From: Candidatus Roseilinea sp.
GTDB taxonomy: Bacteria; Chloroflexota; Anaerolineae; J036; Brachytrichaceae
Length of the DNA: 64,000 bases
NCBI GenBank assembly: GCA_026003755.1
Contig: BPHV01000002.1
Location: 682,001 to 746,000 of the forward strand
Direction: 5' to 3'
Within the stretch, counting starts at the first letter, position 1. The number at the start of each line of letters is the position of its first letter. Below the pieces are notes generated by a model. The model saw only the letters and a list, made by a program, of their open reading frames with translations. It had not been told where the DNA came from and made no database searches. Made by a program: the position numbers and the translations under genes. Of the stretch, positions 5,143 through 22,053 are shown piece by piece.

Positions 5143-6800
5143 CTCATCCCGCTCGCCCGCCTTGCCACATCATCGCGCAGCCATAACACCCAGAGGTCGG
5201 CATGCGTCGTCTCGGCGTCGCGAAAGGCCAGCCAGCGCGCCAGCGACCAACAATCGCCTCCCCCCCACGGCAACCCCACGCAACGCACTGCGTTCAACGG
5301 CGCTTGCGCCGTCACCGCGTATGCCGTCCCAATAAAGTTGCCGGCCACGCGCGGCTGCTCGGGCGCCGGCGTCAATACGACATCGGGCGCGCCCGCATCC
5401 TCCAGCGCATCGAATCTGCGCCGATCGCGCAACACCCACTGCAACGCCGCTGGCGCATCTTCGGCCAGATGCACGTCAAGCGCGTTCGGCTCGCCCGTTG
5501 CGCGGACGCTGATCAGGTGAATGTCCTCCTGCAGCGTCATCAAGTCCAAATCCGCGGCCTGGGCGCGATATGGTTCGGCGGGGTTGTGTGGACGCGCATG
5601 ATTCATCTGGATGCCGACGCCAAACGTGTATAACGATAGCGCGGCGACACCGGCCAGCGCAACGCCGCGCAGGGGAGCGCCGTAGTCCATGGTCAAGCTG
5701 CCCGCCGCGATGAGCGCCGCGATCAACAGGGCGGCGACGACTACAGAGGCCAGCCACGCGCTGCGCGCCTGCCCGGCATACTGCCACACCCCCAAGCCGG
5801 CGTAGATCAGCAGCACGAAGGCGATAGCAACAACAACGCCTTCACGCCGCCAACTCCCCCAACGCTGCGCAGAGGCCAACAGCGCATCGTAAGCCGCCGA
5901 GGACAGACCCGCCATGCCGATCGTCAACGGCGCAAGCAGTGCGGCGCTGCGGCCGGCGCTGACGATGAGCACCCCCAACCCCGCCGCAACCCAGATCCAC
6001 CAAGCCGATTCGGCGCGAACCCGCGCGCGGGCAAACGCCGCAGGCGCAAAGGCCGCGCCGAGCCATAGAACCGGCTCGCTGATGACCAGGCCGAGCATCA
6101 AACGCCCAACGGAGATGGCCTCATCCCCCCCTAGTGTCTGCGCCCACAACGCATAGCCGTTGAAGGCATCGCCCAGGCCGGTCGGACGCATGAGCAGCGC
6201 TGTGGCTGACAACACGAACGCCAGCAGCACGATCGCCACCGTGCGAGCCGACGGGCGGACGGCGTCGAGCGGCAGTGCAGCCGATGAGGCGAGGACGGTC
6301 ACGATGAGCGGCGGAATCGCGTCCTGGCCGGTCGCCAGCAATGCGCCAAACGCTGCTGCGGCCAGAGCCGGACGGCGAGCGCGCCAGGCGCAATGTGCGG
6401 CGAAGGCCAACATCCAGGCCAGGATGGCGCCGCCCATCTCGCGCGAGACGAACCACAGCGTCGGCGAAAAGGCAAGCAGCGCCGCAAACATCAACGCGCG
6501 CGTTCGTCCAAGTTGAAGGCGCAACGCGACGGGCAACAGACACAACACAACACCGCTGAGCGCTGCAACCAGCCGCGCCGATACTTCGCTCGCCCCGAAG
6601 ACGGTGAAGAGCAACGCCTGTAGCCAGCCGAACAACGGATTCGGAAAGGGGGCCGGCTCGCCCCGCAGCGCCGTGAGCGAGACCAGGGCCGTCGCCGCTT
6701 CGGGGTTCGTCAGCAGGAAGTCCAGTCGCGCCAGACGTGGCACACCCGCCAAGAAAGCGATGGCGCACCACAGCGCAACCTCGCGCGTCACTCGGTGCAT
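5139..6800 (-). CDS. GT-C-like polytopic membrane glycosyltransferase (putative)
   Basis: The protein has 553 residues and many hydrophobic helices through residue 400, then a C-terminal soluble part rich in W, R and D. The layout of the N-terminal helix, long loop and clustered helices resembles GT39/ArnT-like transferases. I do not see a clear DE or DD pair in the first loop (TNPEAATA instead), so catalytic competence is uncertain. It overlaps the next gene by 4 bp (ATGA) and lies 15 bp after the sortase gene, in one operon. It may be a partner of the NHL-fused transferase or a diverged subunit. Confidence 0.6.
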   Translation of the reverse strand: MHRVTREVALWCAIAFLAGVPRLARLDFLLTNPEAATALVSLTALRGEPAPFPNPLFGWLQALLFTVFGASEVSARLVAALSGVVLCLLPVALRLQLGRTRALMFAALLAFSPTLWFVSREMGGAILAWMLAFAAHCAWRARRPALAAAAFGALLATGQDAIPPLIVTVLASSAALPLDAVRPSARTVAIVLLAFVLSATALLMRPTGLGDAFNGYALWAQTLGGDEAISVGRLMLGLVISEPVLWLGAAFAPAAFARARVRAESAWWIWVAAGLGVLIVSAGRSAALLAPLTIGMAGLSSAAYDALLASAQRWGSWRREGVVVAIAFVLLIYAGLGVWQYAGQARSAWLASVVVAALLIAALIAAGSLTMDYGAPLRGVALAGVAALSLYTFGVGIQMNHARPHNPAEPYRAQAADLDLMTLQEDIHLISVRATGEPNALDVHLAEDAPAALQWVLRDRRRFDALEDAGAPDVVLTPAPEQPRVAGNFIGTAYAVTAQAPLNAVRCVGLPWGGGDCWSLARWLAFRDAETTHADLWVLWLRDDVARRASGMR

Positions 6801-6815
6801 CGTTGCTGGTGCGAC

Positions 6816-7454
6816 TCAGTCCTCGGCTACCGGGTGGGCGATCACAATCACGCGGTGTGTGTTGCTCCACTCCGGCCAGCACGAGACCAGCGTCAGCCGG
6901 TCGTCGTTCATGGGCTGGATGTACTGCGCATTGGCAATGCGCACCGCGAGGGGTTGGTCGCGCTCGCGTAGGATCTTAACTTCTCGAACGCGATAGATCA
7001 CTTGCCGGTCGCCTGCGCCGAGGCGAATCTCATCGCCGGGTTGCAACGTGTAGAGCTTGCGAAAGACTGAGCCATAGATGTTGTTGTGGCCGTTGAGGAC
7101 GATGTTCTTGCCTTCTCCCAAGCGCCCGGAGTAGTCATGCCAGCCTACGTTCTGATTGTTTGGCGCTGTCCACTCGACGACGCCCATGCCGACGCGCTTG
7201 CCAGGGCCGACCGGCTGAATCCGTGCGTTGACTTTCAACTTGTCAATCCAGATGCGCTCCGGAACCGGATAGACCGCAGCCGCAGACGACAGCCCGGCAA
7301 ACTCCTGCGAAACCTGGCTGCCTTGCGCCGGCAGGACGCGGGGGGATGCCGCTGCGGGAATGTCCGCTACGCCGGCAAAGATCGCAGCGCCGAGCGCGAT
7401 GAGCGCCGCGCTCGCGGACCAGGCAATCCTGCGTCGGAAGTTCGGGCGAAGCAT
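6816..7454 (-). CDS. Sortase (class D/E-like) membrane transpeptidase
   Basis: The 212-residue protein has an N-terminal signal anchor (about residues 10-30) and a sortase beta-barrel. The catalytic triad is visible: H123 in NGHNNIYGSVF, C192 in LTLVSCWP and R201 in NTHRVIVIAH. Sortases cleave C-terminal sorting signals of secreted proteins and join them to the cell envelope or to each other. No LPXTG-type substrate gene lies beside it. Its neighbours are tmk upstream and two membrane glycosyltransferases downstream, so a role in building a glycosylated surface layer is plausible but inferred. Confidence 0.9.
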   Translation of the reverse strand: MLRPNFRRRIAWSASAALIALGAAIFAGVADIPAAASPRVLPAQGSQVSQEFAGLSSAAAVYPVPERIWIDKLKVNARIQPVGPGKRVGMGVVEWTAPNNQNVGWHDYSGRLGEGKNIVLNGHNNIYGSVFRKLYTLQPGDEIRLGAGDRQVIYRVREVKILRERDQPLAVRIANAQYIQPMNDDRLTLVSCWPEWSNTHRVIVIAHPVAED

Positions 7455-7463
7455 ACGCGCATC

Positions 7464-8087
7464 CTAATCAGCAATGTTGAGCCGCGTCTTAACAATATCC
7501 TGGACTTGGGCGGCCACCTGGTCGGTCGTCGCCGACGCATCAATCACCCGCCAACGCTCCGGCTCCTGGGCGATCAGTCGGTGATAGCCCTCGCGCACCC
7601 GGTGATGGAATTCGATGGTCTCAACATCCATCCGATTGACCTCGGCGCCGCTGGCCATCCTGCGCTCAAGCGCGCGTTCCGGATCCACGTCGAAATACAG
7701 CGTCAGGTCGGGTTTCATGCCCTGCGTCACGAAATCGAGCAGGCCGCGCAGAAAGTCCAGATCGAGGCCACGGCCATAGCCCTGATAGGCCAGTGTGCTG
7801 TCGGCGAAGCGGTCGCTCAGCACGATGCCGCCGCTGCGTAGATAGGGCCGAACCTGTTCGGCGACGAGCTGGGCGCGCGATGCGCAATACAACAGCAATT
7901 CGGCCCGGGGATCCATGTTCGAGTTGCTCCGGTCGTGCAGGATGACGCGAATGGCGTCGCCGATTTTGGTGCCGCCGGGCTCGCGCAGCGTGAGCACACG
8001 CTGATGATGCGTGCGCAACCACACTGCCAGACGTTGGACCTGCGTCGTCTTGCCACTGCCGTCCAGGCCTTCAAACGAGATGAACAT
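7464..8087 (-). CDS. tmk: Thymidylate kinase
   Basis: The 207-residue protein begins with the P-loop FEGLDGSGKTTQ (residues 5-16). It contains the DRFADSTLAYQGYGRG motif that binds dTMP and a lid segment RMASGAEVNRMD. Length and motif order match bacterial thymidylate kinases, which convert dTMP to dTDP. It sits between the R3H ATPase and the sortase gene with gaps of 41 and 9 bp, so it shares their transcript. Confidence 0.96.
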   Translation of the reverse strand: MFISFEGLDGSGKTTQVQRLAVWLRTHHQRVLTLREPGGTKIGDAIRVILHDRSNSNMDPRAELLLYCASRAQLVAEQVRPYLRSGGIVLSDRFADSTLAYQGYGRGLDLDFLRGLLDFVTQGMKPDLTLYFDVDPERALERRMASGAEVNRMDVETIEFHHRVREGYHRLIAQEPERWRVIDASATTDQVAAQVQDIVKTRLNIAD

Positions 8088-8128
8088 GGATAGAAGGAGA
8101 AGATTGTTCGGCGCGTGACGCTGATGGT

Positions 8129-9856
8129 TTATTCCCTAAAGATGCGCACGCGACGCATGGGTTCTTTGCCATAAGAGTGCGAGACGAGGTTAGAAGCGCG
8201 CGCGAGCTGATGCTGCTGCCGGCGCACGAACGCATTTTGCGGAGAGAGGTCCACAACGCGCTCTCCGGCCAGCACGCGCCGGATCGCCTCTTCAGCCTCC
8301 TCGATCGCGCTTTCATACGGGATGCGCTCGCCGTCGGTCAGGCCGAACAGGTCGGCCAGACAGCTTTCCATCTGCGCCACCGAGTTCGAACGCAACACGT
8401 AGATGGGCACATTATCCTGCTCGGCCTCGACGATCGTGCGCGGACGCTGGCGATAATATGACTTGGCGGTGATGAGCACATCGGCATCGTCTAGGCTATC
8501 CACGAACACGGCCGGGACGCCTAGCTGTCGGGCCGCCTGCTTCAGGCGATGCTTCGACACGCCAAAAGCGTATAGGCGCATCGCCTTGGCTTCGCTGGGC
8601 TGGGTTTCGAGCCTTTCTGTCGGCGCGGCTTTGTCCTCGCGCTCCTCCGGCGCGCCGGGCCGAACAATGACCGACTCGCCGGTTCTGTCGGTGCGCAGCA
8701 CAGGCAGATCCTCACCGGCGTCGTAGGTGCCATAGCCGTTGCGGCGGGGGCGCCGATCGCGGCGGTCGGACATCTCCGTTTCGCGCACGCGCCCGTCCTC
8801 CTGCGACAAGCGGACGCGCTCGCTGTGCATACGGCCTTCCTCGTCCCAGTAACGCAATTCGGCCACCGGCATGCGGTTACGCAATAACGCATCGACCGCC
8901 TCGCTCACGTCGTGGTGCACCAACAGACGATGTCGGTCACGAATCTCGATCAGCACGTCGAACGTGGGCGGCGCGCGGCGCTCCAGGACGGTCTTCTGCG
9001 TGCCGCGCCGGCGCGCCTCCTCATCCGAAAGTGTGACGCTCTCGATGCCGCCGATCAAATCGTTCAACGTGGGATTGACCATCAGGTTCTCGATGGTCTG
9101 ACCGTGAGCCGTGCCGATCAGTTGCACGCCGCGCTCGGCGATCGTGCGCGCCGCTTCGGCCTCTTGTTGGCGGCCGATCTCATCTATCACGATGACCTGC
9201 GGGTTGTGATTTTCGACGGCCTCAATCATCACCTCGTGTTGCATGCTGGGCGTGGAGACTTGCATGCGGCGCGCGCGGCCGACCGCCGGATGGGGGATGT
9301 CGCCATCGCCGCCGATCTCGTTCGACGTGTCTACGATCACCACGCGCTTGGTTTCGGCCAACACCCGCGCCGCTTCGCGCAGCATCGTCGTCTTGCCGAC
9401 GCCGGGCTTGCCCAACAGCAAAATGCTCTTGCCGCTTTCGATGATGTCCTCGATGATCTTGAGCGTGCCATACACGGCGCGACCCACCCGGCACGTCAGG
9501 CCCACCACCGCGCCACGCCGATTGCGGATGCCCGAGATGCGATGGAGGGTGCGGGCAATGCCGGCGCGGTTGTCGTCATCGAATTCGCCGATGCGCTCGA
9601 GCACGTAGTTCAGGTCTTCCTGGGTGACCTCTGTCTCGCGCAGCACCCGCGTCTCCTCTCGCGCGGTGGAGCTGCCGGCGTCGCCGTTCGCTTCGGCGCT
9701 CACGTAGCGTGACTCGGGCAACCGCCCCAAATCCATCACGACTTCGATGAGTTCGTTGAAGCGTCCGATTCGTCTGATCGCCTCCGCGATCGAGGGAGGC
9801 AGCACATTCAAGAGTGTGTCCAGGTCGTCAGTGATTCGCAGTTCTTGCATAGTCAT
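8129..9856 (-). CDS. Ycf45-like AAA ATPase with C-terminal R3H domain
   Basis: The protein has about 575 residues from the chosen ATG. An upstream ATG at 9898 and one at 9850 are also in frame, and none has a good Shine-Dalgarno site. Walker A is GKPGVGKTT (about 149-157) and Walker B VIVIDE (about 221-226). The ATPase core resembles SpoIIIAA and chloroplast Ycf45 proteins. A charged linker follows, then a conserved region with MRLYAFGVSKHRLKQAA, then a C-terminal R3H-type single-stranded nucleic-acid binding segment with SYGKEPMRRVRIF. The function in bacteria is not settled, but RNA or ssDNA binding is expected. The 5' end overlaps the 3' end of the GNAT gene by 29 bp. Confidence 0.85.
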   Translation of the reverse strand: MTMQELRITDDLDTLLNVLPPSIAEAIRRIGRFNELIEVVMDLGRLPESRYVSAEANGDAGSSTAREETRVLRETEVTQEDLNYVLERIGEFDDDNRAGIARTLHRISGIRNRRGAVVGLTCRVGRAVYGTLKIIEDIIESGKSILLLGKPGVGKTTMLREAARVLAETKRVVIVDTSNEIGGDGDIPHPAVGRARRMQVSTPSMQHEVMIEAVENHNPQVIVIDEIGRQQEAEAARTIAERGVQLIGTAHGQTIENLMVNPTLNDLIGGIESVTLSDEEARRRGTQKTVLERRAPPTFDVLIEIRDRHRLLVHHDVSEAVDALLRNRMPVAELRYWDEEGRMHSERVRLSQEDGRVRETEMSDRRDRRPRRNGYGTYDAGEDLPVLRTDRTGESVIVRPGAPEEREDKAAPTERLETQPSEAKAMRLYAFGVSKHRLKQAARQLGVPAVFVDSLDDADVLITAKSYYRQRPRTIVEAEQDNVPIYVLRSNSVAQMESCLADLFGLTDGERIPYESAIEEAEEAIRRVLAGERVVDLSPQNAFVRRQQHQLARASNLVSHSYGKEPMRRVRIFRE

Positions 9857-10913
9857 GCGCGCACGAGAGCGCGTCTTCGCCATGTGCGCCTTCGCCATCT
9901 GCCGGCAAGGCGCGAGATTCCAGATGAATGGAGGCCGAATGGGTGTTCTTGAGCGCTGTCCCCTCGGCTGCGACCGGAGACCAGACCGGCTGATGGACGC
10001 GCGCGGCGGTGTGGCGCGCCATCAACATCGTCGAGGTCATGTGCACGAAGCCAAGCTCGTCCAGGATCGGGAGCATCCAGCTCTGGTAGTGCCGCACGGT
10101 GAGATAAACCGGCCGCCAAGCGCGCCGCATCAGATGCGCCAGCGCGAAGCGGAGGGTGGGCAACGCGTCCTGCTCGGCGTCAGGCCGGAAGAGCGCTTGC
10201 ATGCCGTAGCCACGCTTGCCCTGACGCACCGAAACGTGCGCGACCAGCTCGTTGCCGCGCATTAACACAAAGCCGCGATCCATGCGATGCATCGAGCGCA
10301 GCAGGTCGAACGACACTTCGGCCTGGTACGTCATCTTCGGCGCAGCGCGCAAGTGCAACGCTTTGATCAGCGGCTCGTCGTCTTTGGTCTGCTCGCGCAG
10401 CCCGTTGACTTCTGGCAACGACGCCAGGTTCGGCTTGTTGGCTAGCTTGAGGACATCCTGTTGGATGAGCGGGACGAAGCCGGCGGCTTGCAACGCTTCA
10501 GCCTCGCCGCCCATTTCAGGGGCTTCGGCGACGATATGATGCGCCCCGCGCTGAGCCGCTTCGACGGCAAATTCCTGCGCGAGATACATCCACGCCTCCA
10601 TCAACTCATCCGATTGTGCGTGAGGCGCCATCAACACAAGCGCAGCGCGCCGACAGCTCGCCGCGCTATCTTCGGCGCTGTTGCCGTTCGCACCCGGCAG
10701 CACATACATTACGCCAAAGGCTTCAATATCACGATCGGCGTCGCGTTCGACCAGCACCACGGCGTGGTCGCGCCCGCCCCCCAAATACGAGCGAATCGCA
10801 TCGCGCAGCGGATTTACCCCTTCAACCGCCACCAGCTCGCAGGCCAGCGGCCGGGCCAGCGCGGTCAGCCGCTGAACGACGCTTACATCACGGATGTCGA
10901 ACGGACGAATCAT
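9828..10913 (-). CDS. GNAT-like acetyltransferase (tandem domain)
   Basis: The ATG at 10913 is preferred to a TTG at 10934 because the fold begins at MIRPFDIRDVSVVQRL, the usual first strand of GNAT proteins. There appear to be two halves. Residues about 1-165 end with an AEAPEMGGEAEALQAAGFVPL stretch, and residues 175-310 end with VRHYQSWMLPILDELGFVHM; both have the strand-then-helix end of a GNAT domain. The C-terminal 50 residues are low complexity and lie over the start of the R3H ATPase gene. Substrate unknown. First gene of the minus-strand operon. Confidence 0.65.
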   Translation of the reverse strand: MIRPFDIRDVSVVQRLTALARPLACELVAVEGVNPLRDAIRSYLGGGRDHAVVLVERDADRDIEAFGVMYVLPGANGNSAEDSAASCRRAALVLMAPHAQSDELMEAWMYLAQEFAVEAAQRGAHHIVAEAPEMGGEAEALQAAGFVPLIQQDVLKLANKPNLASLPEVNGLREQTKDDEPLIKALHLRAAPKMTYQAEVSFDLLRSMHRMDRGFVLMRGNELVAHVSVRQGKRGYGMQALFRPDAEQDALPTLRFALAHLMRRAWRPVYLTVRHYQSWMLPILDELGFVHMTSTMLMARHTAARVHQPVWSPVAAEGTALKNTHSASIHLESRALPADGEGAHGEDALSCAHDYARTANH

Positions 10914-11053
10914 CCTCGAGTGACAATTTGCCAACGCCGGGCACGGATATGCGGCCGGTCGCCGGCCACGTGCCCCGCCCGACTGAGTGAGATTCTACCC
11001 CAGCGCCCACCATCGGGTGCGGGATTCGGGTCACCCTTTACAATCGCGCCGGT

Positions 11054-12184
11054 ATGAACTACTTCCGAGAACAAATCCTGACCTTGCCCCAACTCATCGC
11101 AGAGATATCGGAAGCCTTCCTCAACGAAGCTGCGCGCGCCCTCGACGACCATTTCTGTCGCGCCTTGGAGCGGCTTTACGTCATCGGCTGTGGCGATAGC
11201 CACTTCGCTGCGCTGGCCACCGAGTTCGCGTTCGAGTCTATCGCCGGCGTGGCCACCGAAGCACAGAATGCCATGACCTTCTCACGCTACGGCGTGATCC
11301 ACTTTGATGCGCCGGGGTTCGCGCCGCGCGCAAGCGCCAGCGCGGTGATCGGCGTCTCAGTCTCCGGCGGCGTCTCGCGCACCATCGAGGGCATATTGCG
11401 CGCGAAAGCGCGAGGCTTGCGCACTTTTGCCGTGACCAACAGCGAACAGACGCCCATCGCTCAGGCCGCCGGCGCCGTGCTGACCACTCGCGCGCCCGAC
11501 GTGCCCAACGCGGCCGGCGTGCAAGTGCCCGGCGCGCGCTCGTACTTCGCCTCAATGGTGATGCTGTACTCCTGCGCGCTGCGCATAGCGGCAGCCCGCG
11601 AGCGTGACGTGCGCGTCTGGCGCACCCACCTATCGGACATGGGCCGCTGGGCGCAACACACGATCGAGATGAGCGACGTGCCGGCGCGCGCGTTGGCCGA
11701 GCGCACCCTCGACGCAGGGGAGTTCGTGTTCTGCGGCAGCGGGCCGAACTTCGGCACGGCGCAGTTCTGCGCGGCGAAGGTGCTGGAGGCGAGCGGCGAC
11801 TCGGCCATCGGCCAGGACGTGGAGGAGTGGGCGCACTTACAGTATTTCGCCAAGGCGGTGGACACGCCGACGTTTCTCATCTCGGCAAACGAGCGCGACG
11901 CCAGCCGCGCCGCCGAGGTGAAGACGGCGATGCAGGCCATCGGACGGCGCGTGATCGAGGTCTCTCCACAAGGCGCAGCGATTTCAGCCGACGGCTTTCA
12001 TCTGCCCTATGCGCCATGCCCGGAGGTCTTCTCGCCACTGCTGGCATGTATCCCGGCGATGCTGTTCGCGGCCCACCGCGCAGAGTTGCTGGGCGAGCCG
12101 TATTTCCGTGCTTTCGGCGGCGGACGCAGCATCGAAGGCGGCGGGGGCATCAGCCGCATCCGCACCAGCGCGCTGGTCGTTTGA
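11054..12184 (+). CDS. SIS-domain sugar-phosphate isomerase family protein
   Basis: This 376-residue protein has two SIS (sugar isomerase) domains. The first includes YVIGCGDSHFAALATEF and the SVSGGVSRTIEGI loop, which corresponds to the phosphosugar-binding serine loop. The second contains FVFCGSGPNFGTAQFCAAK and the acidic segment DVEEWAHLQYF. This matches GlmS isomerase-half / AgaS-like proteins without the glutaminase domain. It likely binds an amino- or keto-sugar phosphate in the cytosol. The gene is divergent from the GNAT-led operon, with a 140 bp shared upstream region. Confidence 0.82.
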   Translation: MNYFREQILTLPQLIAEISEAFLNEAARALDDHFCRALERLYVIGCGDSHFAALATEFAFESIAGVATEAQNAMTFSRYGVIHFDAPGFAPRASASAVIGVSVSGGVSRTIEGILRAKARGLRTFAVTNSEQTPIAQAAGAVLTTRAPDVPNAAGVQVPGARSYFASMVMLYSCALRIAAARERDVRVWRTHLSDMGRWAQHTIEMSDVPARALAERTLDAGEFVFCGSGPNFGTAQFCAAKVLEASGDSAIGQDVEEWAHLQYFAKAVDTPTFLISANERDASRAAEVKTAMQAIGRRVIEVSPQGAAISADGFHLPYAPCPEVFSPLLACIPAMLFAAHRAELLGEPYFRAFGGGRSIEGGGGISRIRTSALVV

Positions 12185-17311: not shown

Positions 17312-18625
17312 ATGAGTTCTGCAAAAGTCCTCTTCGATCAGGCCCAGCAGGTGCTCCCCGGCGGCGTGACGGCCACGGCGCGCTTTAACAAGGCGCTAGG
17401 GCGCCCGTTCTACATTGCGCGAGGCGATGGCGCGTACGTGTTCGATCTGGATGAGCGCCCCTACGTAGACCTGTGCACCTCGCACGGCGCATCGTTGCTC
17501 GGCCACAATCACCCGGCGATCAAAGCCGCGGTGATGCGCGCGCTGGAGCTGGGGATTATTTGTGCGGCGGAGACGGAATACCAGGTGGCGCTGGCGCAGA
17601 AATTACGCGCGCGGGTGCCTTGCGCGGAGATGGCGCGTTTCTCATCCAGCGGCACCGAGACGATGATGCACGGCCTACGGCTGGCACGCGCGGCAACCGG
17701 CCGCGAGAAGGTCATCAAGTTCGAGGGGCACTTTCACGGCTATTCGGACTTTCTGAACTTCAGTTGGGCGCCGCCGCTGGCGCAGGCCGGTCCGGCCTGC
17801 ACGCCGCTGCCCTACCCCGAATCCACTGGCATCCCTGCCGTAACTGCCCAGACGATCATCATTGCGCCTTTCAACGACCCAGACGCACTGGAAGCAATCT
17901 TCGAGCGGCACGGCCACGAGGTCGCCGCGTTGGTCATGGAGCCGATCAACTACGATTCCGGCTGCATCCCGCCGCAGCCGGGCTTCGTCCAACGTTGTCG
18001 CGAGCTCTGCGATCACTACGGCGCGCTGCTGTTCTTCGACGAGGTGTTGACGGCCTTCCGCGTGGCGCCGGGCGGCGCACAACAATATCTGGGCGTGACG
18101 CCAGACCTGGCCGTGCTGGGCAAAGCGTTTGGCGGGGGCATGCCGATCAGCGCGCTGGTGGGGCGGCGCGAGGTGATGATGCATCTGAAGCCGGCCGGGC
18201 GCGCCGAGATGAGCGGCACCTACCTGGCACATCTGACCGCCGCGCTGGCGGCCGACGCGGCGCTGGACGAGTACGGCCGGCCGGGGTTCTACGAGCGCCT
18301 CGACGCGCTAGGGGAGTACTTCTACGGCGCCTTTCAGGAGCTGATCGCGCGCAGCGGCGTGAAGGTGCGCTTGCAATACATCGGGCCGCGCTTCGGGCTG
18401 TACTTCGGCCTCGACCCAGATCAGCCCGTGGTGAACTACCGGCAGGCTGCGCAGCAGGACCACGAAGCGTTTTTAACCTTCGTGCGCGGATGTATCCGGC
18501 GCGGCGCGTATGTGCACGTCTCGGCGCACCACGGCTTCTCGGCAGCGCATACCGAGGCCGACCTAGATCGCGCGCTGGAGGCCATCGCGGGCGCGCTGGA
18601 GGATGTAAAGCAGAATTGCGGATGA
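17312..18625 (+). CDS. PLP-dependent class III aminotransferase, glutamate-1-semialdehyde-mutase-like
   Basis: The 437-residue protein has the HemL-like layout: an N-terminal VLPGGVTATARF segment, SSSGTETMMHGLRLAR (phosphate loop, about 111-126), FFDEVLTAFR with D243 against the pyridine ring, and the Schiff-base lysine K271 in LGKAFGGGMPIS. Some residues around the GSA mutase active site differ, and such paralogues often act on other amino-ketones. No other heme-pathway genes lie nearby, so I do not call it hemL. It is divergent from the DUF2961 gene. Confidence 0.85.
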   Translation: MSSAKVLFDQAQQVLPGGVTATARFNKALGRPFYIARGDGAYVFDLDERPYVDLCTSHGASLLGHNHPAIKAAVMRALELGIICAAETEYQVALAQKLRARVPCAEMARFSSSGTETMMHGLRLARAATGREKVIKFEGHFHGYSDFLNFSWAPPLAQAGPACTPLPYPESTGIPAVTAQTIIIAPFNDPDALEAIFERHGHEVAALVMEPINYDSGCIPPQPGFVQRCRELCDHYGALLFFDEVLTAFRVAPGGAQQYLGVTPDLAVLGKAFGGGMPISALVGRREVMMHLKPAGRAEMSGTYLAHLTAALAADAALDEYGRPGFYERLDALGEYFYGAFQELIARSGVKVRLQYIGPRFGLYFGLDPDQPVVNYRQAAQQDHEAFLTFVRGCIRRGAYVHVSAHHGFSAAHTEADLDRALEAIAGALEDVKQNCG

Positions 18626-18637
18626 AGAAAGGGAAGA

Positions 18638-18680
18638 CATCCATGCTGCGCGGACTTGTCAGGCCACAGCAGCATGGATG
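18638..18680 (-). terminator. Long inverted repeat ending the sigma/Mau-like operon
   Basis: A perfect 12 bp inverted repeat (18638-18649 with 18669-18680) and a 19-base loop lies between the convergent genes. On the minus strand it follows the 97-residue gene by 11 bases and is followed by a pyrimidine-rich tract (TCTTCCCTTTCTTC), consistent with a terminator for that operon. Confidence 0.5.
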
Positions 18681-18691
18681 CCAACCGTTGA

Positions 18692-18985
18692 TTAGCTGAG
18701 CAAGCGCGCCACAAAACCGACGGCCACGCGCTTGGCCAAACCTCTGTGATCGCCGTTGACGGCCTCGGCGAGGTAGGCGACGCCGTCGGCATCGCTCTTG
18801 GCGCCGGGTATCTCGTAGTACTCGATGATGACCCTGCCCAAAAACTTGCTGTCCTTGCCGGCGGCACTGATGATCGGCTCTTTCGAACTTAACACTTCGG
18901 GAATATTCGCCTTGAGAATTTGCTTGGTCCACTGACCAGGCTGCGGCTCGGTTTGGGCGACGCCGCTGTTCCATCGTTCTGACAT
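18692..18985 (-). CDS. Small soluble protein of unknown function, last gene of the Mau-like operon
   Basis: The 97-residue protein has a clear AGGAGG Shine-Dalgarno 8 bases before its ATG, so it is a real gene. It has no signal peptide and no cysteine. It contains QILKANIPEVLSSKEPI and FLGRVIIEYYEIPG. I do not recognise the family. It is the last gene after the 14-cysteine Tat peptide, 33 bp downstream and in the same direction. Its role is unknown; it could be a chaperone or partner for the peptide. Confidence 0.7.
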   Translation of the reverse strand: MSERWNSGVAQTEPQPGQWTKQILKANIPEVLSSKEPIISAAGKDSKFLGRVIIEYYEIPGAKSDADGVAYLAEAVNGDHRGLAKRVAVGFVARLLS

Positions 18986-19018
18986 AGCATGACCTCCTGT
19001 TTGAATTACTCAATCCTT

Positions 19019-19345
19019 TTACCCACACGCGACGCATGCGCAATCGAATACGCATGGATCGCCGTGCCAGCTGCCGTAGGCATATACCCGGCGAGGAGTG
19101 CAGTTGCATCCGCCACATACGCACCAACATGTCAGCCCACCGCTGGTGCACTGCGATACGCACGGGTCGCACGGGCCGAAGCATTCGCCTGGGCAGCCGG
19201 CTGCAACAACCTTCGCCGCTCGTCCGATGGCAGAGAGGCCGCCGGCGAGCGCCACACCTAAGGCTGCCACTCCCTTCAAAAAGCCGCGACGCGAGAGCTG
19301 GTGCATGACGAAACCCGTCGTTCGATCGGCCAAGCCTTCGATCAC
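19019..19345 (-). CDS. Tat-exported cysteine-rich protein, MauA-like candidate
   Basis: The GTG at 19345 is chosen because AAGGAGG lies 8 bases upstream and it overlaps the thioredoxin gene by 4 bp. The 108-residue product has a twin-arginine signal (SRRGFLKGVAALGVALAGG). The mature part of about 58 residues has 14 cysteines, enough for seven disulfides, and two tryptophans: W74 in TCWCVC and W93 in AYGSWHGDPC. The methylamine dehydrogenase small subunit (MauA) is likewise exported, cysteine-dense and uses two tryptophans for its TTQ cofactor. The SGGLT and SW elements recall MauA, but the protein is half its length. Homology is therefore a hypothesis, supported by the MauE and MauD neighbours. 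Confidence 0.75.
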   Translation of the reverse strand: MIEGLADRTTGFVMHQLSRRGFLKGVAALGVALAGGLSAIGRAAKVVAAGCPGECFGPCDPCVSQCTSGGLTCWCVCGGCNCTPRRVYAYGSWHGDPCVFDCACVACG

Positions 19346-20004
19346 ATTCGATCACCTCCTTCAGGCGCTGAATGAAGTTCTCTCGACGCCGCATAGGCCG
19401 CCGGCACGATCAAACCGATCTCAGCATGCGCCTTGTGCTGAATCGGTGGCGCGATGCGAAGCGCCTTGTATATCCACTGGCCGGCATGCGGATTGAACGT
19501 TTGACTGACAAGGCGATGGCGTTCGTCCACAACCAAGCCGGTGGGCACGGCGATCAGGCTCAAGCGGCGCATCGCTGCGCCTTCGACGTCGAAGAGCGCA
19601 CCGATCGAAGAAGCGAGCCGAGGGTGGGCTTGCAGCAGCCGGCGCGCCTCAGCTTTATCCCCCACCATGACAAGCACGATGCCGCGACCGGTGACATCAC
19701 GGTCATCGAGCGTTTCGAGCTGTTCCAGCACTGCGCGGCAAGCGGCGCACGTGCCGCTCAAAAAGAGAATCACGCCGCCACGTTGCTTGAGGCGATCTCT
19801 GACCAAGACCATCGAACCATCTTGGTCAGGCAGATACAGATCTGGCAACACATCACCGACCTCGAGGGAAGTAATCGGCGGCGCAGCCATGCGCCAATGT
19901 TGCTGCATGGTGCTCAGTTGGCGCAACACGCCGATCACCAACAAACCGAGCAGGAGCAACAACGCCCATTGCGCCAAAAAGGCGATCAACCAGATTCCTT
20001 GCAT
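19342..20004 (-). CDS. MauD-like membrane-anchored thioredoxin-fold protein
   Basis: The 220-residue protein has one N-terminal membrane helix (about residues 8-28) followed by LRQLST, then a thioredoxin/AhpC-TSA fold. The redox motif is C86-A-A-C89 in FLSGTCAACRAVLEQL. The helix, the short linker and a C-x-x-C in an extracytoplasmic domain are the MauD layout. MauD is needed for correct disulfides in the MauA subunit. It sits between the MauE-like gene (3 bp gap) and the Cys-rich exported gene (4 bp overlap), the same order as mauE-mauD-mauA. Confidence 0.85.
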   Translation of the reverse strand: MQGIWLIAFLAQWALLLLLGLLVIGVLRQLSTMQQHWRMAAPPITSLEVGDVLPDLYLPDQDGSMVLVRDRLKQRGGVILFLSGTCAACRAVLEQLETLDDRDVTGRGIVLVMVGDKAEARRLLQAHPRLASSIGALFDVEGAAMRRLSLIAVPTGLVVDERHRLVSQTFNPHAGQWIYKALRIAPPIQHKAHAEIGLIVPAAYAASRELHSAPEGGDRM

Positions 20005-20007
20005 GAT

Positions 20008-20568
20008 CTATACCTGTGGCTTCACAAACACCACGCTGCCCTCGCTCAAGGCAAACACGATCATCATCAGGTTCACCACGACGACGAGCAAGCCGGCCAA
20101 CTCAGACGCGCCCAACCCAAGCAACCAAACTGGAGTAAACGTCCGCGCAGGATGCGCCCAAGCCCAGCCGGTCATCCATAAGGCCATCCCAAGCAAGATC
20201 AGGTTGCGCACGAGCGCACTTGGACCGATCGCAGCGCTACTCTCGCCGAAGCAGTTACACGACAGATTGTTTCCCCGCCGGAGATGCGCGGCGATCACCA
20301 CAGAGAAGATGCCGAGCAGCGTGCCGGCCATCGCGGGGAGAAGCGCCGGCCAGAACCCCACCAGCAATCCAACGCCGAGCGCGAACTCAGCCGGCGGCAA
20401 TCCCAACGCAGCCGACTGTGCTGCTGCGCCTGACAAGCGATGCATCGTCAATCGCTCTACGGCGTCGCGCAGCGTTCCCCAGGTGCGTAGCTTGCCAACG
20501 GCTGCCAAGATGAACACGCAGCCAAGCGACAAGTGCAGTGCAGCGATAAGCGCTTGATCTACAGTCAT
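20008..20568 (-). CDS. MauE-like (DoxX/MauE family) integral membrane protein
   Basis: The protein has 186 residues and about four membrane helices. The family-specific cytoplasmic loop motif C-x-C-F-G is present (LSCNCFGE, C104 and C106). In methylotrophs MauE works with MauD to oxidise or isomerise disulfides in the dehydrogenase small subunit. Here it directly precedes the MauD-like gene and overlaps the propeller gene by 4 bp. Confidence 0.88.
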   Translation of the reverse strand: MTVDQALIAALHLSLGCVFILAAVGKLRTWGTLRDAVERLTMHRLSGAAAQSAALGLPPAEFALGVGLLVGFWPALLPAMAGTLLGIFSVVIAAHLRRGNNLSCNCFGESSAAIGPSALVRNLILLGMALWMTGWAWAHPARTFTPVWLLGLGASELAGLLVVVVNLMMIVFALSEGSVVFVKPQV

Positions 20569-21371
20569 GGCGTCACCTTGCTTTTCCAGACAGGAATGTG
20601 CTTGATATCCACGCGATCTTTGGACGTCAGCACGATGATGACGCGGTCGTCGTAGCCAAAATGCACGGCTGCAATGCCCTCGTCTCGATACGAGAACGTT
20701 GCAACGTGCTCACCGGACTGTGTATCGCGAAGCTCCACCACTGCACCGCTGGATATGGCCAGCCAATTGCCATCGCCGCTGAGAATGACGATGTCATCGG
20801 ACGCCATCAACTTGCGTTGCCACGCGCGCGCACCTTGATCCACCAGCCAGACGGACACGCGGTCGGGTTCCCTGATGACAAGCCGAACCCCGCTCGGGTC
20901 CAAGAGAAGCCGCACCGGCGGGGTCACCGTGGTCAGAGCGCGGATGGGGTGCTCGCGTTCGAGATCCCAGACAGTGACACGATAGCGGCTGTCCACGAAA
21001 GCGACGCGCGATCCATCCGCGCTTACTGCCATGGGCGAGCCTTCCGCTATGGCCGGCGACTCTTTGCCCACCGCGGCGCCCGTCGGAGGACGCGATGACC
21101 AAGCGCCGGCAGACGCAAGTGCTATCCATACCCCGACGGCAACTAAGACAACGAGGAAGCCCAGCGAAGCCAGTGCAGATAACGGATAGCGCCAACGCTG
21201 GGACGCGTCGAGATCGGCCCCTTGAGACAACTTGCGCCGAACCCTCCCCATTACATCTGCGTGGTCGGATGCACCACGCACGGCCAGCGTGTTCAGCGCT
21301 TGCCGCACGATCGCATCCTCATCGCGTTGATCGTGGTTGTGGAAACGGTCTTGAGTCATTGGCTTTCTCAT
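20565..21371 (-). CDS. Membrane-anchored WD40-like beta-propeller protein (possible anti-sigma factor)
   Basis: The 268-residue protein has a short cytosolic N-terminus (about 65 residues, charged and helical), one membrane helix (about 66-90) and an extracytoplasmic part with WD-like strands: MAVSADGSRVAFVDS, VTVWDLEREHPIRAL, DGNWLAISSGAVVELRD and IAAVHFGYDDRVIIVLT. The topology is that of an anti-sigma factor next to its sigma gene, whose 3' end it overlaps by 53 bp. It also holds the place of mauB, whose product is a seven-bladed propeller, but only about four blades fit here. Signal reception is the more likely role. Confidence 0.65.
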   Translation of the reverse strand: MRKPMTQDRFHNHDQRDEDAIVRQALNTLAVRGASDHADVMGRVRRKLSQGADLDASQRWRYPLSALASLGFLVVLVAVGVWIALASAGAWSSRPPTGAAVGKESPAIAEGSPMAVSADGSRVAFVDSRYRVTVWDLEREHPIRALTTVTPPVRLLLDPSGVRLVIREPDRVSVWLVDQGARAWQRKLMASDDIVILSGDGNWLAISSGAVVELRDTQSGEHVATFSYRDEGIAAVHFGYDDRVIIVLTSKDRVDIKHIPVWKSKVTP

Positions 21372-21972
21372 GCTGCCGCAAGTCAGTTCGAAGAAACCGA
21401 CGTTCGCCGGCTTCTTCCCATTGACGCAACACCTCTCGTAACGTCTTTCTCGCTCGGTGCAGCCGCCACTTGACTGTTCCCAGTGGAACGTTCATGAGCG
21501 CAGCGATCTCGCGTTCCTCCAGATCCATGTAGAAGCGCAAGACGACGGTCGTCCGTTGTTCACCCGACAAGCGCCACAACGCCGCTCTGACGGCGTACAG
21601 CGATTCGTTGCGCTCGGCGATGTCATCTGGCTGAAGCGAGTTACATGGCCGCTCCTCGGCCGTCTCCCACGGCGAATGTCGCCGGTTTCGACGCAACCAC
21701 TTCAGCGCCAGATTGACGACGATGCGATAAAACCACGGCGCAAACGGACGCTTCGGGTCGTACTGATGAATGCGCTCGAAGGCCACGATGAATGCGTCGG
21801 CGACGACGTCTTCAGCTACATCGCGGCTGCCCACGATGAGAAAGGCCATGCGCAATGCGCGCAATTGGTACAGGTGGACGAGCACTTCGAGTCCCCTGAC
21901 ATCTTTTTGCCGAAGCAGCGCAATTGCGACCGATTCATCTTCGGTCACAGCCTCGTCGTTGCTCAACTGCAT
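21319..21972 (-). CDS. ECF-family RNA polymerase sigma factor
   Basis: The 217-residue protein has sigma region 2 (VAEDVVADAFIVAFERIHQY, with RPFAPWFYRIVVNLALKWLRR) and region 4 (LSGEQRTTVVLRFYMDLEEREI followed by VPLGTVKWRLHRARKTL). It lacks region 1.1 and region 3, as ECF sigmas do. It is the first gene of the operon leading through the propeller, MauE-like, MauD-like and Cys-rich genes, and probably drives that operon. It diverges from the MlrC gene, leaving an 81 bp intergenic region. Confidence 0.92.
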   Translation of the reverse strand: MQLSNDEAVTEDESVAIALLRQKDVRGLEVLVHLYQLRALRMAFLIVGSRDVAEDVVADAFIVAFERIHQYDPKRPFAPWFYRIVVNLALKWLRRNRRHSPWETAEERPCNSLQPDDIAERNESLYAVRAALWRLSGEQRTTVVLRFYMDLEEREIAALMNVPLGTVKWRLHRARKTLREVLRQWEEAGERRFLRTDLRQHEKANDSRPFPQPRSTR

Positions 21973-22053
21973 CTACCTTCAATATCCACAGCATGGGGGA
22001 AAGGTTTGCCTTCGTTCTGCATCGCGGCTATGCTGGTGACTTGGAGATCACAA

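Follow-up and report, generated by a model that had tools for sequence, protein, structure and literature searches.

A MauE/MauD-type cassette around a cysteine-rich peptide with a predicted Tat signal in Candidatus Roseilinea and other Chloroflexota

In the mau operon for methylamine dehydrogenase (MADH) the genes are ordered mauB-E-D-A and accompanied by mauG, and MauA is a multi-disulfide client of MauE and MauD that is exported by a twin-arginine translocation (Tat)-type route. Dedicated oxidoreductases also fold an exported, disulfide-containing peptide in the sublancin/glycocin clusters, which use the thiol oxidoreductases BdbA/BdbB, export by a peptidase-containing ATP-binding cassette (ABC) transporter, and glycosylation. 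Three candidate families of ribosomally synthesized and post-translationally modified peptides (RiPPs), described in Streptomyces by decRiPPter (Kloosterman 2020, PMC7794033), carry MauE, and one of them also MauD, beside small precursors with at least eight cysteines in genomes that have no mau pathway; the authors point to an earlier proposal that MauE aids disulfide formation in the beta subunit of MADH, and they infer that it takes part in modifying the precursor. Here we analyse a six-gene operon in a 64,000-nucleotide stretch (the window) of the genome (G000) of a hot-spring Chloroflexota bacterium of the Candidatus Roseilinea genus, in which a MauE-family protein and a MauD-like thioredoxin adjoin a 14-cysteine peptide. 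We consider it probable (roughly 0.6) that the operon is devoted to exporting one small cystine-rich protein and folding it oxidatively outside the cytoplasm.

A compact operon and its recurring four-gene core

The operon occupies positions 18692-21972 and is read from 21972 to 18692 on the (-) strand, its six genes closely packed with no real gaps:

21982..22006, (-): putative extracytoplasmic function (ECF) promoter of the whole operon, AACCTTT-N12-GGATAT, kept upstream of the sigma gene in relatives
21319..21972, (-): ECF sigma factor, 217 amino acids (PF04542 5.9e-13, PF08281 1.9e-12; TIGR02937 above cut-off)
20565..21371, (-): single-pass membrane protein with a propeller-like outer domain, 268 amino acids; putative anti-sigma factor or sensor
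20008..20568, (-): MauE-family membrane protein with a CNCFG loop (PF07291 4.3e-21, above cut-off)
19342..20004, (-): MauD-like membrane-anchored thioredoxin with a CAAC motif (TIGR02661 1.6e-9, below the equivalog cut-off)
19019..19345, (-): predicted Tat-exported peptide with 14 cysteines, 58 mature residues, GTG start (TIGR01409); read as the main product
18692..18985, (-): sm, 97 amino acids, family-less; putative immunity- or escort-type partner

An earlier reading of this DNA (henceforth the original prediction) had described the six genes as tightly spaced or overlapping, and all six open reading frames are present at the coordinates that it gave, on the (-) strand. The sigma and propeller genes overlap by 53 bp, and the propeller/MauE and MauD/peptide pairs by 4 bp each; gaps of 3 bp and 33 bp separate MauE from MauD and the peptide from sm, respectively. 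The CxCFG loop and the CAAC motif that it had assigned were also recovered, the former reading CNCFG. The operon is present in five of the nine genomes of the genus, and the ratios of nonsynonymous to synonymous substitution (dN/dS) of its genes, computed against the nearest usable relative (L012), were lowest in sm (0.03) and the peptide (0.06), followed by the sigma factor (0.09) and then by the propeller protein, MauD and MauE (0.18-0.27). Since four genomes besides our own carry the same operon and all six genes lie between 0.03 and 0.27, the arrangement is not due to chance. Ca. Roseilinea sp. SKYG71 (JANWYN010000019.1) has this operon too, with a peptide 92% identical to that in the window. 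In three relatives at least one flank of the operon has the same neighbours; G023 carries the operon at a different place, and identity in matched stretches falls to 65% for the peptide, 33% for MauE and 44% for MauD.

Outside the genus, profile searches covering 400 genomes from across the phylum and 47 from one class recovered the core mauE-mauD-peptide-sm in G142, G245, G197, G272 and G053, and in all the core is kept in five families of the phylum (f1, f27, f30, f31 and f48); the search of the two small proteins and the gene order against Chloroflexota that the original prediction had proposed thus returned a conserved core order. The same four genes occur in G134 with mauE placed after sm, and G142 has a second peptide-sm pair with its own MauD-like gene that shares the mauE of the locus. 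Every intact peptide copy examined adjoins mauE and/or mauD, which are themselves disrupted in G085 (L073 6304-8473), where each is split between frames and the peptide and sm are intact. Peptide homologues occurring apart from MauE/MauD, which would have told against the mau analogy, were therefore not found among the intact copies examined. Because the core recurs in four other Chloroflexota families, the cassette is real, and it is undescribed.

Like the Streptomyces clusters, the operon places MauE and a MauD-like protein beside a cysteine-rich precursor, here with 14 cysteines, in a genome without a mau pathway. The original prediction had stated that no known system it could name has this composition, which is not supported given the published decRiPPter clusters; we found nothing closer than these in the literature. 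They belong to a different phylum, and the likeness is drawn from their published description. What is new here is the occurrence of the cassette in another phylum, the Tat signal, the dedicated small partner and, in Roseilinea, the sigma/propeller pair with its own promoter. Unlike the sublancin/glycocin clusters, the cassette has Tat and MauE/MauD in place of a peptidase-containing ABC exporter and glycosylation.

Three further observations concern the history of the locus. Across window positions 17312-21972, the proteins of the operon and a neighbouring aminotransferase are 98-100% identical to those of G022 (L011); for the M81-like and ABC-F genes next to them the figure is just 83-87%, which may reflect recent recombination between species. 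A decayed cassette in G094 (L104 6159-6854) retains just a mauE remnant and sm. A second MauE-like gene at L074 1890-3117 stands with another Tat cysteine-rich small protein (2235-2537) and a different partner (1890-2210), and hints at further MauE-linked peptide families.

The peptide, its small partner and their proposed maturation

The peptide carries the Tat signal SRRGFLKG (TIGR01409, 22.6 bits, exceeding the cut-off), and the 58 mature residues that follow hold 14 cysteines and two tryptophans. This composition, noted in the original prediction, is correct for the window copy; across relatives a single tryptophan is conserved. The number of cysteines is even in 11 of the 12 tabulated family members (12-16), the exception being the second G142 copy, with nine. 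The totals vary (12, 14 and 16) and individual cysteine positions are poorly conserved. The ribosome site of the peptide, AAGGAGGTGAT, is near-perfect, and the sites of the peptide and sm are the strongest here and in most related loci, with mean Shine-Dalgarno strengths of -11.2 and -9.6 kcal/mol, respectively, and -1.3 to -7.1 kcal/mol for the other operon genes (some start positions in distant loci are approximate). Since the strongest ribosome sites and the lowest dN/dS values coincide in the peptide and sm, these two appear to be the products of the operon, and the remaining genes to provide regulation and maturation.

The MauE of the operon is the sole MauE in the genome, and C-x-C-x-G is invariant in its family alignment. 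The MauD-like protein has one N-terminal transmembrane segment and, in its alignment, an invariant CxxC and later proline; at 37.5 bits against an equivalog cut-off of 188.6 (TIGR02661) it can be called MauD-like only. Plasmid searches with MauD and sm as queries returned no match. In the maturation that we infer, the peptide would be produced abundantly and leave the cytoplasm by Tat; outside, the membrane-anchored thioredoxin MauD would pair its cysteines into about seven disulfides, and electrons would pass between MauD and its partner in the membrane, MauE, in the manner proposed for the folding of MauA. The resulting peptide, secreted or held at the surface, would be covalently knotted and would more likely resemble a bacteriocin or RiPP than an enzyme subunit.

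The gene that ends the operon, sm, which had been described as belonging to an unknown family, indeed had no match in Pfam or NCBIfam and no usable match in the PDB. It is predicted by AlphaFold2 (AF2) to consist of a disordered N-terminal tail followed by a beta-beta-alpha domain (predicted local distance difference test (pLDDT) ~90, residues 51-97), and it has no transmembrane segment. A resemblance to the cryptophyte phycoerythrin alpha fold was rejected (Foldseek E 3.2, template modelling score 0.15; 12 genomes gave no PF02972 hit where sm lies). Directly downstream of every intact peptide gene examined lies sm, which also outlasts the peptide: in G316 and G373 (L074 and L075) the peptide gene is broken and sm is still open, and at four further loci (L100, L101, L103 and L104, from G094, G213, G367 and once more G373) sm stays open beside no recognisable peptide. 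Lone copies are only of sm. An immunity-type gene would be expected to behave in this way, which is suggestive, though short of proof; sm is most likely a cytoplasmic beta-beta-alpha cognate partner of the peptide with a role in immunity or escort. In G142 sm is tandemly duplicated inside one protein at both peptide loci (L058 8500-9072 and 10874-11389). At L103 the orphan sm (6625-6897) adjoins a lanthipeptide dehydratase, LanB (7242-11996; PF04738/PF14028), followed by a LanC-like gene; this was seen at L103 only among the sm loci examined, and membership of sm in a lanthipeptide cluster was dismissed as chance.

Two other accounts of the product were considered. Tat normally exports prefolded, cofactor-bearing proteins, a habit that would suit a metal- or cluster-binding protein loaded in the cytoplasm, the cysteines of which MauE and MauD would keep reduced, as in CcdA/ResA-type systems; the thioredoxin could reduce instead of oxidise, and sm could be a cytoplasmic loading chaperone. 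We regard this as unlikely, since even but varying cysteine totals at poorly kept positions fit disulfides better, MauA is likewise a Tat-type multi-disulfide client of MauE/MauD, and sm persists where the peptide is lost. Alternatively, the peptide may be a non-antagonistic housekeeping protein of surface or structural type induced by envelope stress, with sm as a second structural partner or regulator, as the peptide dN/dS of 0.06, the pairing of an ECF sigma factor with a membrane sensor and the presence in five of nine genus genomes would allow; the patchy distribution, the decay in several genomes and the retention of sm after loss of the peptide make this account doubtful. The explanation that we favour also has evidence weighing against it. 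The peptide is strongly conserved inside the genus, which is unusual for an arms-race bacteriocin, and the G022 copy keeps 13 of the 14 cysteines (C59Y). The AF2 model of the peptide was uninformative (mean pLDDT 46), so that the structural comparison with MauA suggested in the original prediction yielded no usable fold and the disulfide pattern is not predicted. Finally, beyond the oxidoreductases the operon has no gene for a modifying enzyme, nor one for a protease or a dedicated transporter, and for this reason we use the term RiPP as an analogy only.

If the proposed maturation is correct, MauE/MauD would serve small exported cystine-rich proteins in general as a module for oxidative folding, and would not be specific to methylamine, in a setting of uncultured anoxygenic phototrophs and their relatives. 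The cassette is compact and testable, with a peptide, two oxidoreductases, a partner, and its own sigma factor and promoter; the peptide and sm are two protein families unnamed in the libraries searched, and were the peptide antagonistic, it would represent a Tat-exported kind of bacteriocin.

Regulation by the sigma factor and the membrane propeller protein

The original prediction had placed the operon under its own sigma factor, and this is supported by the adjoining ECF sigma gene and a conserved promoter. The pattern AACCTTT-N12-GSATAT stands upstream of the sigma gene in each of the four genomes that could be aligned, among them L011, L012 and L014, the last being the locus of G023, where the surroundings differ. 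Exact matches numbered one per genome, that of the operon itself, in four genomes, and the reversed pattern gave none. The motif was derived from the same sequences. By calculation ~0.2 chance matches per genome would be expected, so its uniqueness mainly indicates that there is no second strong site.

The propeller protein has a cytoplasmic N-terminus of ~65 amino acids, one transmembrane segment (about 67-85) and a short propeller-like outer domain with weak propeller matches. Its N-terminal motif AL..A.RG.....DV...VR..L.Q is shared with L014, and the outer part diverges in length and sequence between G000 and G023. Searches for PF06433, the family expected of a MauB-type large subunit, gave no match to the propeller protein of the window nor any in 14 genomes, although control genomes likewise gave none; on this basis we rejected its identification as MauB, to which the original prediction had compared it. 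The cytoplasmic N-terminus, single transmembrane segment, overlap with the sigma gene, divergent outer part and missing PF06433 fit an anti-sigma factor or sensor better, and we infer that this role is likelier than that of an enzyme subunit. The outer domain would sense a signal and release the ECF sigma factor, which, once freed, would transcribe its own operon from AACCTTT-N12-GSATAT. Two results count against such a circuit or its generality: the N-terminal domain matches no Pfam anti-sigma family, and the sigma and propeller genes were found with the cassette in Roseilinea only, which means that regulation by this pair is not a general feature of it. Elsewhere in the genome, the remaining ECF loci showed no comparable anti-sigma N-terminus.

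Relation of the peptide to MauA

The present operon shares with the mau operon the E-D-A order, a Tat-type and multi-disulfide small product, a PF07291 MauE and a MauD-like thioredoxin. It differs in having no PF06433, no PF02975, no second tryptophan for the tryptophan tryptophylquinone (TTQ) cofactor and no MauG of its own, and in the additional sm gene. Of the mau analogy drawn in the original prediction, the E-D-A-like order therefore stands, kept in five families, and the TTQ cofactor and the MauB-type propeller are not supported. We nevertheless considered whether the cassette could be a reduced MADH, with the peptide as a truncated MauA, the tryptophan of its YGSW motif as MauA Trp57 bearing a quinone or tryptophan crosslink, and the propeller as large subunit. 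Besides the gene order, the spacings C-6-CxC and NC-x10-W agree by eye with MauA around Trp57 (NCPPGTKLATASW versus NCTPRRVYAYGSW), and the best PDB hit of a nine-peptide profile was the MauA precursor 3c75_L (E 0.043), in the same register. This hit disappeared once two sequences were added (11-sequence profile). None of the nine peptide family members tested matched PF02975, and G000 as a whole also lacks a hit to this family. When the peptides were compared by hhalign with MauA-like sequences from the phylum, the probability was 2%, in a different register and within the range of cysteine-preserving shuffles. Scored against a MauA profile, one of 11 peptides beat all 500 of its own shuffles, three more had 3-18 shuffles scoring at least as high, and the rest were ordinary. 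Homology of the peptide to MauA is thus unproven, the PDB hit having failed the hhalign shuffles, the per-sequence hidden Markov model scores and the enlarged profile, though the two may share a distant ancestor.

The tryptophans give a similar picture. The peptide lacks the region of the MauA partner tryptophan (Trp108), its second tryptophan (Trp74) is leucine in G023, and the conserved one (Trp93, of YGSW) is replaced in G053, which reads RAHGYN. As the original prediction had noted, no MauG is nearby: the closest PF03150 gene in G000 is 115 kb away. MauG-family genes occur in Roseilinea genomes; none was found in nine genomes outside the genus, six of them cassette carriers. Since the peptide is not recognised as MauA, its second tryptophan is not conserved, the other is replaced in G053 and MauG is distant or absent, a TTQ on the peptide is unlikely, contrary to the tryptophan-derived cofactor that had been suggested, and we judge a reduced MADH very improbable.

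Genuine MauA-like genes do occur in the phylum, a fact that favours a link with MADH. In G272 (L057 8072-9646) a gene of this kind follows mauE and mauD ~6 kb from the short-peptide cassette, and its product matches PF02975 and keeps both tryptophans at the TTQ positions. Three f56 genomes have MauA-like genes (PF02975, both TTQ-position tryptophans) in tandem; two of these neighbourhoods (L061 8229-13754 and L062) include propellers, an ECF sigma factor and MauE or MauD-like genes, and one includes a propeller-MauE fusion confirmed by Pfam. No PF03150 match was found in the searched genomes of the G272 and f56 kinds. These loci thus resemble the present cassette in combining a MauA-like gene with MauE and MauD (G272) or with propellers, MauE and an ECF sigma factor (f56), and differ from it in PF02975 and both tryptophans and, in f56, in the propeller-MauA tandems, the propeller-MauE fusion and the missing sm. 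They are the most promising candidates for an evolutionary connection between the two types of cluster. A still broader proposal, that the peptides form a phylum-wide class of Tat-exported, MauE/MauD-folded cystine-rich effectors with a cytoplasmic immunity protein, derived from MauA-type small subunits after loss of the TTQ-partner tryptophan, seems to us distinctly unlikely.

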